Shown here: one piece after another, positions 5,779-8,849 of the stretch
Layout of the letters: each line of letters starts with the position of its first letter
Position numbering within the stretch: position 1 is the stretch's first letter
Assembly: GCA_002224055.1 (NCBI GenBank)
Contig: AZLU01000176.1
Span: forward strand, 55,482 to 88,921
Reading direction: 5' to 3'
DNA from: Pezizomycotina sp. ARF18
Lineage: Eukaryota > Ascomycota
Length of the DNA stretch: 33,440 bases
Notes under the pieces: model-generated
Database searches by the model: none
What the model saw: the letters and a program-made list of their open reading frames with translations, nothing else
Told to the model about the DNA's origin: nothing
Position numbers and translations under genes: made by a program

Positions 5779-8700
5779 TCATGTCAAAGTCCCGCCGCCC
5801 ATATCGCCGCCGCCAAAGTCTCCACCGCCGAAGCCTCCATCATCGCCGCCGAACATTCCTGGATCACCTCCGTCTCCGCCGTCTCCGCCGTCCCCGCCGA
5901 ACATACTACCGGGATCTCCGCCAGACCCTTGACCGCCATCACCGCCAAATTCACCCGGTCTTCACCTCCATCGCCTCCGAAAGGATTTCCATCAGGCCCT
6001 TGACCACCGTCCCCACCGAATTCGCCGGATCCGTCACCGCCGTCGCCGCCAAATTCGCCAGATCCGTCACCTCCATCGCCTCCGAATGGATTTCCATCAG
6101 GCCCTTGACCACCGTCACCACCGTCCCCACCGAATTCGCCGGATCCGTCACTGCCGTCACCTCCATCGCCTCCGAAAGGATTTCTATCAGGCCCTGACCA
6201 CCATCCCCACGAATTCGCCGGATCCGTCACTGCCGTCGCCGCCAAATTCGCCTGGTCCATCGCCACCATCGCCGCCAGACATCGGGTCATTCGGATCCAT
6301 CGGTCCTTCAGGTCCGCCTTCAGGTCCGCCTTCAGGTCCGCCTTCAGGTCCGCCTTCAGGTCCGCCTTCAGGTCCGCCGTCAGGTCCGCCGTCAGGTCCG
6401 CCTTCAGGTCCGCCGTCAGGTCCGCCTTCAGGTCCGCCGTCAGGCCCTTCAGGGCCATCCCCGCCTTCTGGATCGTTAGGATCGCCACCCATTGGGTCGT
6501 TAGGATCGGAGCCGGGAGATCCGCCGTTTCCGGGTTTCCACCGGGGTTTCCACCTCCGGGAGAACCGCCTGGGTTTCCTGTTATATCAGAAAGTATATTA
6601 GTATGTGTTGTGTTTGGAGTATACTTATATAAAAAGGATACGCTCGGTTTTTTTTTTTTCTTTAAAAAAAAAAAGAGGGAAACATGAGCGGCGTTTAAAG
6701 ATTTACCTCCGGGACTTCCACCGCCGGGCATACCACCGCCGGGTGCGCCACCGGGAGATCCGCTTGGTCCGCCTGGTCCTAATTTGTTGAGTTATTGTCA
6801 GAATGTCATGTTTTCATGGTATCAATATTTGGATACAACAGGAAATCGAAAAGTAGGAAGTTGTAGCATTGAACAGATCAAGAAATTGGAAGTTATCTCT
6901 TAGGATAACTATGATTCGCTACTGCGGTCGTAAGCTTGAAAGATGAAGGAGGGAGTTGTAAATTTACCTTTGGTCCACTGCCGGGAGAGCCGCCTGGAGC
7001 ACCGCCTGGTCCTATTTTGTTGAAGTAGTGTCAGTATGCTTTTACTTTGAGCGATATAGATGTGTAGAAACGATTGGGGGCAGGTTTATATATGTGTGTG
7101 TATGCGTGTGTGTATCTGTATGTAGAGGAATGTGAATGTATATGCGTATATGCATGTAAAATATATGTAATTTTCTTCCCGTGAATATGTATGTGCCTTC
7201 AATGAGTCTACGCAGACTATAGAGGACTTCTTAATGAAGGCTGGTCTTTCTAAACTCAGAGACTCCAAGTTCCGGCTTATAATAGCCAGCTTTGTAACCA
7301 TCACGGGGGTACTAAGATCTGAAAAAAATATAGATGGTGTGAAGTTTATATTTACCTTTCGGTCCGCCAGGAGCGCCCCCGGGTCTTCCACCGCCTGGTG
7401 GCTTGCCTCCACCAGGTCCCATTGGTCCTGATTTATAGTGTATGATGTTAGCATGTGTTTAATCATAAAAACTGGCAATATATTACTCAGTTGGTCATGC
7501 AACTCGTCGTTGAATTCGAAGCATGAATGTGAACTCACCTCCTCCGGGACTGCCTCCGGGACTTCCACCTCCTGGTGGCTTGCCGCCGCTACTTGGTCCT
7601 TTCGGTCTAGCCAATTAAGTATGATATTAGCATAGATTATTTTTCACGATGTTTATACTCGTCTCTGAGATGGAAGGAATGATTGTTCAATTTACCTCCT
7701 GGTCCGCCACCGGGTGGCTTGCCACCTCCGGGAGAACCGCCGGCGGCCTTGCCGTTGCATCCCAGATAGGAGCTTCCGGCGTAGAAAGCGAACGAATCGG
7801 CGTTGCCCAATGCCTGCTGCTGGCTCAAATTCTCACAGCTTTGTAACCCATAGCTGACATCCTGTGTTCCTGGTTGGTACACAGCATCGTCGTGGGTGAA
7901 CTCGTGAAGCGCCGTCGATGCCTGATCGTTCTGACCGCACTGTGGTTGCGCTGGTAGACGGTAGAATAGCGGACAAGTCCAGACGGTGTTCATCTGAGAG
8001 ATCGTGTACGCGATGACACCCCCGCCGTTTGATTCAGTACACGAGGACTGGCCGGGTGTTCCCGCGTCGGTGCAATGGTACTCGGTCTTTCCATGTCCTC
8101 CGCATTCTCCAGAGACGGCTTTGAGGCGCGCGGAAACGCTCTGTTTCACTTTATCGCTGGTGGTGTGAAAGAATGTTTCAAAGTTCGGATCGTTTCCCAA
8201 GGCATTTTGCGACGCTTAGCAGCAACTTCGGAGCATAACTGCAACGCCGCTTTTAGAGCGCTGGCTTGTTCGCCGGAACAATCGTTCTCAAGGGTGGTTC
8301 GCTTCGCGACGCGTGCTTTCCAAGCCGCGAGAGGGTCCTCACACTCTTGGTGGACTCTGGGTTAATCTTAACCTTGATCGGCTGCGATTTGTAGTAACGA
8401 GAGTGCGTGATCGTCGTGCTGTTTATCGGAGCAGTAGCGATGTAACCCTGCGATAAGATAGTATACTCGCCGCCTTTACTCATGTCGTAGATCCTCGCGA
8501 GGTCGTTGTTGGTCTCGTGGGCTTCCCCGGGGTGGAGTGTGACAAACTGCTCATTGTCGAGATTTTGAACCATCCAGCGCGCGTCAATACCTTCGAATGG
8601 TAATTCTCCGGTGGCGTCATAGGCGTGCATGGAACGGTCATCGAGTTCGGTCAACAATTTGTTTCCTTTGAAGATGTTGATCGGTTCGTAGCCGGTGTTT

Positions 8701-8849
8701 AAGATGGAAGCGCGGATTATTGTGTTCCCTGTGGAGTTTTGGGATAACGTTACACGGATTGGCGTGTCGATCTTTTCATCGAACGGGAGAGCCGCTGTTA
8801 ATGTCCCGAAGGCGGTGGCAGCTAGCGCCAGGCCTTTAAACAACGACAT
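5779..8849 (-). CDS. Secreted deuterolysin (M35) metalloprotease with long collagen-like C-terminal tail
   Basis: Exon 1 (8849-7696) is a complete fungal deuterolysin: hydrophobic signal peptide ending about LTAA, propeptide, a Kex2-type KR before TTLENDCSGEQ, zinc motif HEFTH (7892-7906) and the third-ligand motif GTQDVSYG (7847-7870). It ends with the family's usual terminal Cys (YLGC). The same reading then runs into SPGGGKPPGGG and five more exons: 7598-7539, 7427-7356, 7011-6968, 6778-6707 and 6577-5779. Exons 2-5 encode GGxP/PGGG repeats. Exon 6 moves to GGPE/GGPD units and then GGDGSGEFGGDGG. Introns are GT-AG and phase 1. Single-base gaps near 8337, 8216, 6970, 6530, 6210, 6195 and 5955 must be allowed for; with them the coding length is 2208 nt, an exact 735 codons plus stop. 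One more gap near 5790 would extend the end to about 5743. Expected role: extracellular zinc endopeptidase. The tail's role is unknown (adhesion or wall anchoring is a guess). Confidence 0.9.
5940..6270 (-). repeat. Longer imperfect repeats encoding GPDGNPFGGDGG / SGEFGGDGG
   Basis: Three related blocks on the coding strand carry QGPD(G/R)NPFGGDGG followed by one or more SGEFGGDGG units. Comparing copies shows which bases are missing: GAATTCGGTGGGG in the complete copies against GAATTCGTGGGG near 6210, and GTCAAGGGCC against GTCAGGGCC near 6195. Confidence 0.9.
6311..6442 (-). repeat. 12-bp coding minisatellite, 11 units
   Basis: Eleven tandem copies of GGTCCGCCTTCA or its one-base variant GGTCCGCCGTCA (+ strand). 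On the coding strand they give alternating Gly-Gly-Pro-Glu and Gly-Gly-Pro-Asp. The unit length is a multiple of three, so copy changes keep the frame. It lies in exon 6 of the metalloprotease gene. Confidence 0.97.

Follow-up and report, generated by a model that had tools for sequence, protein, structure and literature searches.

A predicted secreted M35 zinc protease of Pezizomycotina sp. ARF18 that reads past its terminal cysteine into a long, two-part Gly-rich tail

The zinc endopeptidases of family M35 have drawn attention both as proteases that fungi secrete and, for several pathogens, as virulence factors. PMC3938660 gives the motif definition of the family as HEXXH together with GTXDXXYG. 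The fungal M35 papers examined describe a signal peptide followed by one domain: putative effectors of Corynespora carry one M35 domain of 316–344 residues (PMC12924839), and for RcMEP2 a signal peptide and a domain ending at residue 346 are described, with constructs ending at residue 351 (PMC7215534). No Gly-rich or collagen-like tail was attributed to an M35 enzyme in any of the literature titles listed, which is not proof of absence. Here, we describe a gene whose long tail is a departure from this arrangement. It lies on the minus strand, at 8849–5779, of a stretch of 33,440 nucleotides (nt), hereafter the window, from the ascomycete Pezizomycotina sp. ARF18 (GCA_002224055.1, contig AZLU01000176.1, here C176; 46.36 Mb in 408 contigs), and it encodes a predicted secreted M35 zinc protease (deuterolysin) followed in a continuous frame by a Gly/Pro-repeat tail. 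The coordinates, the strand and the order of the parts had been given in a preliminary description of the window, and profile matches together with the mapping of frames and exons show them to be correct. Our best explanation of the whole, to which we assign a probability of roughly 0.55, is an M35 gene with a low-complexity tail that would act as a flexible electrostatic tether.

The protease is encoded by exon 1, which consists of three overlapping frame pieces (Table 1). The N-terminal open frame at 8253–8861 (minus strand) matches positions 6–174 of the PF02102 profile (E 6.4e-18), and the open frame at 7637–8215 (minus strand) matches positions 208–352 of its 352 positions (E 2.4e-33) and also PF14521, Aspzincin_M35 (3.6e-31). 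The PF02102 scores of these two pieces, 65.3 and 116 bits against a curated cut-off of 27, place the gene in Peptidase_M35. The second piece by itself gave no M35 match in the Pfam scan; judged by eye, it holds a plausible start of the mature enzyme at KR-TTLENDC. Both HEFTH, an instance of the HEXXH zinc motif, and GTQDVSYG, an instance of the GTXDXXYG third-ligand motif, are found in 7637–8215. An alignment of the third piece with 1eb6, neutral protease II of Aspergillus, extends to the last residue of the latter, 177 (E 1.3e-29); all five Cys in the aligned part of 1eb6 are matched, out of seven Cys that the piece contains as far as there. The propeptide is covered by PF02102, while the signal peptide and the KR site were seen by eye only. 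By these features the gene is predicted to encode a working prepro-M35 zinc endopeptidase.

Both the PF02102 profile and the solved Aspergillus enzyme end at the terminal Cys, and the gene described here reads on. After ...YLGC the frame continues for 20 residues, NGKAAGGSPGGGKPPGGGPG, up to the first donor at 7695, all within one unbroken open frame of 192 residues. If left unspliced, it adds 19 residues beyond the donor before a stop at 7637–7639, which amounts to 39 residues past the Cys in one open frame. A compact enzyme ending at the terminal Cys, which is typical of M35 but does not define it, is thus not what this gene encodes. Because the junction lies inside one exon and one unbroken frame, the fusion of protease and repeat does not depend on any splice or frame repair. 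The statement in the preliminary description that the protease runs straight past its terminal Cys into Gly/Pro repeats therefore holds, and we are highly confident that the gene has a real, fused coding tail.

Beyond exon 1, the tail is distributed over five exons separated by five ordinary-looking introns, which start with GTAAAT or GTGAGT and carry CTRAY 23–24 nt before their end (donors at 7695, 7538, 7355, 6967 and 6706; first exon bases at 7606, 7427, 7011, 6778 and 6577). On the minus strand of 7700–6560 (1141 nt), GTRNRT occurs five times and all five are the donors, and CTRAY followed by AG occurs at six places, five of which are the acceptors, both patterns having been composed after the splice sites had been seen. 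Each piece from the end of exon 1 to exon 5 has exactly one Gly/Pro-rich frame, with 71–78% Gly+Pro. When these Gly-rich frames are followed, introns 2, 3 and 5 are in phase 1 on both sides, and introns 1 and 4 are in phase 1 on one side and off by one on the other. The stop codon of exon 6, at 5781–5779, lies in the Gly-rich frame. Intron 3 (7012–7355) is long, at 344 nt, and contains CA/TA-rich simple sequence.

The DNA of the exons is alike from one to the next: for 13 of the 15 exon pairs none of 200 dinucleotide shuffles, which do not control for shared codon usage, reached the observed score, and for the other two pairs 3/200 and 6/200 did. Among the ten intron pairs, two share their 3′ part (introns 1/2 and 3/4, 0/200 each), two are borderline (1/4, 9/200; 2/5, 13/200) and six show nothing. 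The shared parts are a 15-nt stretch near the end of intron 2 that resembles intron 1, and the last 27 nt of intron 4, which resemble intron 3; neither score was reached in 200 shuffles. This pattern suggests that the Gly/Pro spacer may have grown by duplication of an exon together with an intron end, of which constraint on the branch site can explain a part.

Whether the tail is translated was judged from differences between its own repeats, for which similar 8-codon stretches were compared in 11 pairs, with nucleotide identity as the sole criterion of choice. Of 32 differences seen in the Gly-rich frame, 20 are at third positions (binomial p 7e-4 against one third), and 16 of 22 are so when the piece with the 12-bp array is taken out (seven pairs, p 2e-4). 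In the other two frames of the same DNA, third positions hold 5 of 32 and 4 of 39 differences. The bias favours selection on the encoded residues. Given that most differences between copies fall at third positions when the DNA is read in the Gly-rich frame, we regard a coding tail as very probable.

The tail comprises roughly 370 low-complexity Gly-rich residues, and its pieces contain 41–53% Gly. Such density is unusual for this genome: in the window beyond 9000 and in eight further genomic regions, mainly M35 loci, there are 1009 open frames with 40 or more residues, and only two of them reach 40% Gly in any 40-residue stretch. Two parts can be told apart in the tail: first a slightly basic Gly/Pro spacer, with a total charge of +8 over 101 residues from the end of exon 1 to exon 5, and then a strongly acidic Gly/Asp/Glu block, in which the exon 6 pieces carry −24/97, −15/73 and −10/60 after a neutral start of 14 residues. 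The order of repeats given in the preliminary description, GGP/PGGG followed by GGPE/GGPD and then GGDG, agrees with our repeat mapping. The GGPE/GGPD array at 6305–6444 has a 12-bp period with 11.7 copies and 96% matches; the GGDG repeats at 5932–6249 have a period of about 105 bp (35 residues), with an 11-residue sub-period at 6003–6087. A search of the assembly with the GGPE piece returned, besides that piece, a single weak match, on contig C7 (E 9.6e-4), and the GGDG piece had no match besides itself.

The same description had called the tail collagen-like, and this we could not uphold. The longest strict Gly-X-Y run is 1–2 triplets in the nine tail pieces read apart, where an artificial GPP repeat scores 10; GGPE is a repeat of period 4; and no Pfam collagen repeat was found in the parts scanned in the Gly-rich frame, namely the end of exon 1 and exons 5–6 (E<=0.1) and three exon 6 pieces (E<=1). 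Collagen was rejected on these grounds. We point out that the term collagen-like is too easily applied to any Gly/Pro-rich repeat. RTX beta-rolls consist of nonapeptide GGxGxDxUx repeats, and a calcium-binding beta-roll of this kind was rejected as well, the three exon 6 pieces having no Pfam match up to E 1 and the periods being 35 and 11 residues, not 9. An anchored enzyme, which had also been proposed, finds no support in the Gly-rich frame, where the most hydrophobic 12-mer of the C-terminal end averages 0.10 on the Kyte-Doolittle scale; one other frame of exon 6 ends in a mildly hydrophobic, Ala-rich stretch. With the frames of exon 6 uncertain, a C-terminal anchor of the glycosylphosphatidylinositol type appears unlikely. 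Matrix binding by the tail is possible.

To read the gene from end to end, the frame has to change at least seven times: twice in the protease, once at the first splice, once in exon 4 and three or more times in exon 6. The preliminary description had allowed for seven single-base gaps, and the need for them is real; with a raw exon sum of 2209 nt there is about one frame change per 316 nt, and a total of 735 codons hinges on how the gaps are resolved. As controls we used HSP70, TCP1 and RPB2 genes of the same assembly, counting as a switch without intron room any frame switch with at most 12 bp extra. There were 28 such switches in 18,413 aligned bp; the tally used 66 of 81 rows, one of them cut down and unreliable, and without that gene it stands at 28 in 17,799 bp. 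The worst control genes are two HSP70, with six switches in 1,797 bp and five in 1,575 bp. Breaks of the same kind in these conserved genes make assembly error the simplest explanation, and we consider it most probable that the breaks in the M35 gene are such errors.

Table 1. Features of the M35 gene; positions refer to the window.
Feature	Positions	Strand	Basis or signals
Exon 1, first frame piece: signal-peptide-like start MSLFKGLALAATAFGTLTAALP and propeptide	8253..8849	minus	PF02102; signal peptide by eye
Exon 1, second frame piece: putative mature-enzyme start, Kex2-like KR preceding TTLENDCSGEQ	8146..8361	minus	open frame
Exon 1, third frame piece: catalytic domain, terminal Cys = residue 153, then NGKAAGGSPGGGKPPGGGPG	7696..8215	minus	PF02102, PF14521, 1eb6
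Intron 1, 89 nt	7607..7695	minus	GTAAAT donor, branch-like CTAAT 24 nt from end
Tail exon 2: PKGPSSGGKPPGGGSPGGSPGG	7539..7606	minus	Gly/Pro-rich frame
Intron 2, 111 nt	7428..7538	minus	GTGAGT donor, CTAAC 24 nt from end
Tail exon 3, 72 nt: PMGPGGGKPPGGGRPGGAPGGPK	7356..7427	minus	Gly/Pro-rich frame
Intron 3, 344 nt	7012..7355	minus	GTAAAT donor, CTGAC 23 nt from end
Tail exon 4: PGGAPGGSPGSGPK	6968..7011	minus	Gly/Pro-rich frame
Intron 4, 189 nt	6779..6967	minus	GTAAAT donor, CTGAC 23 nt from end
Tail exon 5, 72 nt: PGGPSGSPGGAPGGGMPGGGSPG	6707..6778	minus	Gly/Pro-rich frame
Intron 5, 129 nt	6578..6706	minus	GTAAAT donor, CTAAT 24 nt from end
Exon 6: short Gly/Pro/Asn part, GGPE/GGPD array, GGDG/GEF/NPF repeats, Gly/Asp end	5779..6577	minus	

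Profile searches of the assembly with PF02102 and PF14521 returned eleven M35 loci, of which two score under the curated cut-off. Six loci were matched by PF02102, and in five of these, namely the gene on C176 and four paralogues, there is no stop directly at the terminal Cys. The paralogue at 239k on contig C39 is Gly-rich in the same frame after the Cys (GCGGGNGGARP), as on C176, and a Gly/Asp/Asn/Gln part with a net charge of −10 over 63 residues then follows in another frame. On C5, the protease frame continues for 56 residues that are not Gly-rich; in another frame there follow GKPKKGKPKKGQPKK, rich in Lys and with a charge of +13 over 31 residues, and a mixture of Gly, Ser and Asp. The protease frame on C109 stops nine residues past the Cys, with GGDGGQF-type sequence in other frames, and that on C34 continues for 63 residues with a short Gly/Ser part, a different sequence containing Cys, Tyr and Trp lying in another frame. 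Because the assembly is so full of frame breaks, these tail-like sequences probably belong to the same genes as the proteases next to them, which for C5 and C109 we infer.

Other features of these loci were seen in passing. At L005:822–1385 (C5) a Lys/Pro/Gly-rich stretch, GKPKKGKPKKGQPKKGKPNGG, stands in another frame, its charge opposite to that of the tail on C176, and at L003:1895–2452 (C34) the C-terminal part, ICYDYVNGRWVQQRQGNRASYSICYVNVGGQWRS, is a possible twofold Cys/Tyr/Trp repeat without a Pfam match of its own. The sixth PF02102 locus, a divergent paralogue at 230k on C39 (L007:1168–2577), has an open frame of 469 residues with a low-complexity insert rich in Gly, Pro, Ser and Asp between two M35 parts, and a hydrophobic C-terminus, SLAIISVFVYIFTRLE, after its last Cys. 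An M35-like locus on the minus strand of C2 (L044), below the curated cut-off, is followed by a Pro-rich tandem repeat that is readable in several frames. In a set of 5.8 billion proteins no homologue came under the limit among 75, 320 and 5484 candidates; as this set seems fungal-poor and the 75-candidate search covered only proteins of about 105–336 residues, the result is silent on how widespread the architecture is.

If the tail acts as an electrostatic tether, the protein would be secreted and its propeptide removed by a Kex2-type protease, and the folded enzyme would stay joined to a flexible, extended arm that is not collagen. The polyanionic block would keep the enzyme near positive charge, either on matrix or wall material that is cationic or at the basic proteins for which deuterolysins have a preference, and the acidic arm would serve as tether and substrate concentrator, not as a fibre. 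We lean towards a functional tail, while electrostatic binding in particular is a tentative proposal. Several observations weigh against the tether as best explanation. At roughly double the control-gene mean, the break rate of the gene equals that of the worst control, and several GTP_EFTU domains, a further control outside the 18,413-bp tally, are unbroken, so error density is uneven across the assembly. A structure prediction from the catalytic piece as a single sequence had a mean pLDDT (predicted local distance difference test) of 34.6 and was discarded. Between repeat copies, 14 of the changed codons are synonymous and 13 nonsynonymous, so constraint is only partial; and GTRNRT is expected by chance four to five times in a stretch such as 7700–6560, so only its placement is informative. 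According to PMC7051145, MrM35-4, an M35 enzyme of Metarhizium robertsii, digests casein, and a preference for basic proteins can therefore not be assumed for the enzyme described here. The tail of one paralogue is basic, as would be expected of diversified targeting and not of one shared role. Low-complexity tails can, finally, arise by slippage without any function.

This last point leads to the main rival of the tether, in which the tail is translated without a specific role: Gly/Pro and Gly/Asp codons would have spread by slippage and exon duplication after the loss of a stop, and the product would be tolerated since the protease folds without it. The nearly perfect 12-bp array, the wide variation among paralogues in what follows the terminal Cys, the lack of a known domain in the tail pieces scanned and the share of nonsynonymous changes (13/27) are all in its favour. 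We nevertheless find it doubtful, as the third-position bias points to residues that have been under constraint, at least from the time when the copies arose, the charge layout is clearly two-part and in the paralogues, too, the terminal Cys is not followed directly by a stop. The paralogues bring up a different possibility, that the family diversified via its tails and not its active site, with exon-built, non-collagen Gly-rich arms of opposite charge on a shared core: acidic in the gene on C176 and in those on C39 and C109, lysine-rich in that on C5. Each arm would direct a protease much like the others to a surface or substrate of different charge. If this is true, a clade with tails of different charge would be one in which the gene encodes where the protease is located and not only what it cleaves. 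We consider it unlikely, the idea being weakened because the tail sequences of C5 and C109 are in another frame than the protease piece.

The remaining alternatives concern the integrity of the gene and the fold of its tail. The repeat exons could form a separate transcript, with the protease ending soon after 7696 by reading into intron 1, where 19 further residues, the first from a split codon, lead to the stop at 7637–7639. Although an unspliced intron 1 does yield that stop, the Gly/Pro repeat already starts inside the protease exon, the signals of intron 1 are ordinary and the repeat type is common to exons 2–6 and the end of exon 1, which makes this very unlikely. A decaying pseudogene would account for at least seven frame changes in 2.2 kb, a density at the top of the control range, but conserved genes with HSP70, TCP1 and RPB2 domains show the same kind of breaks in this assembly, and no damage is seen in the catalytic motifs or in the five Cys that align with 1eb6; we regard it as less likely still. 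A true collagen-type triple helix, which would make a trimeric, fibre-bound protease, has the Gly and Pro content of the tail to recommend it, but with Gly not at every third residue (two triplets at most in the nine pieces), a period of four in GGPE and no Pfam collagen match its probability is negligible. The electrostatic tether is our preferred, if tentative, reading.

The tRNA and Rfam scans of the whole window gave no match. Neighbouring open frames carry a HET domain and a fungal rhodopsin domain, in keeping with a filamentous ascomycete. At 22724–24745 on the minus strand, the frames around the HET match (22921–23622) resemble one gene split over several frames, consistent with breaks throughout the assembly, and at 3112–4092 on the same strand a DUF3292 match comes with a long stretch rich in Glu, Asp and Lys.

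Among known systems, Aspergillus deuterolysin (neutral protease II, 1eb6) shares HEXXH, GTXDXXYG and the Cys pattern with the gene described here, but ends at the terminal Cys, where this gene adds about 370 Gly-rich residues. Peptidyl-Lys metalloendopeptidase (1g12, from Grifola) has the Aspzincin motif (E 2.8e-5) but is more distant, and its solved chain of 167 residues is without such a tail. MCL1, a collagen-like protein of Metarhizium, is not known to contain a protease. Fungal collagen-like proteins such as MCL1 resemble the present product in being secreted and in having a long Gly-rich region, whereas collagens require Gly-X-Y, which is absent from the tail. Pro/Gly-rich stretches of low complexity frequently receive a Sec24 label. 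PMC7051145 mentions a collagen-like coat protein of Metarhizium and describes MrM35-4 of M. robertsii, a secreted M35 enzyme that, like the product of our gene, has additional sequence beyond the protease; the authors report a putative Sec24-related domain at its C-terminus. Judged by this description only, that C-terminus may be a comparable low-complexity tail. Unlike the enzyme described here, MrM35-4 has a known function, the inactivation of prophenoloxidase in insects, as given in the title of that paper (PMC7051145).

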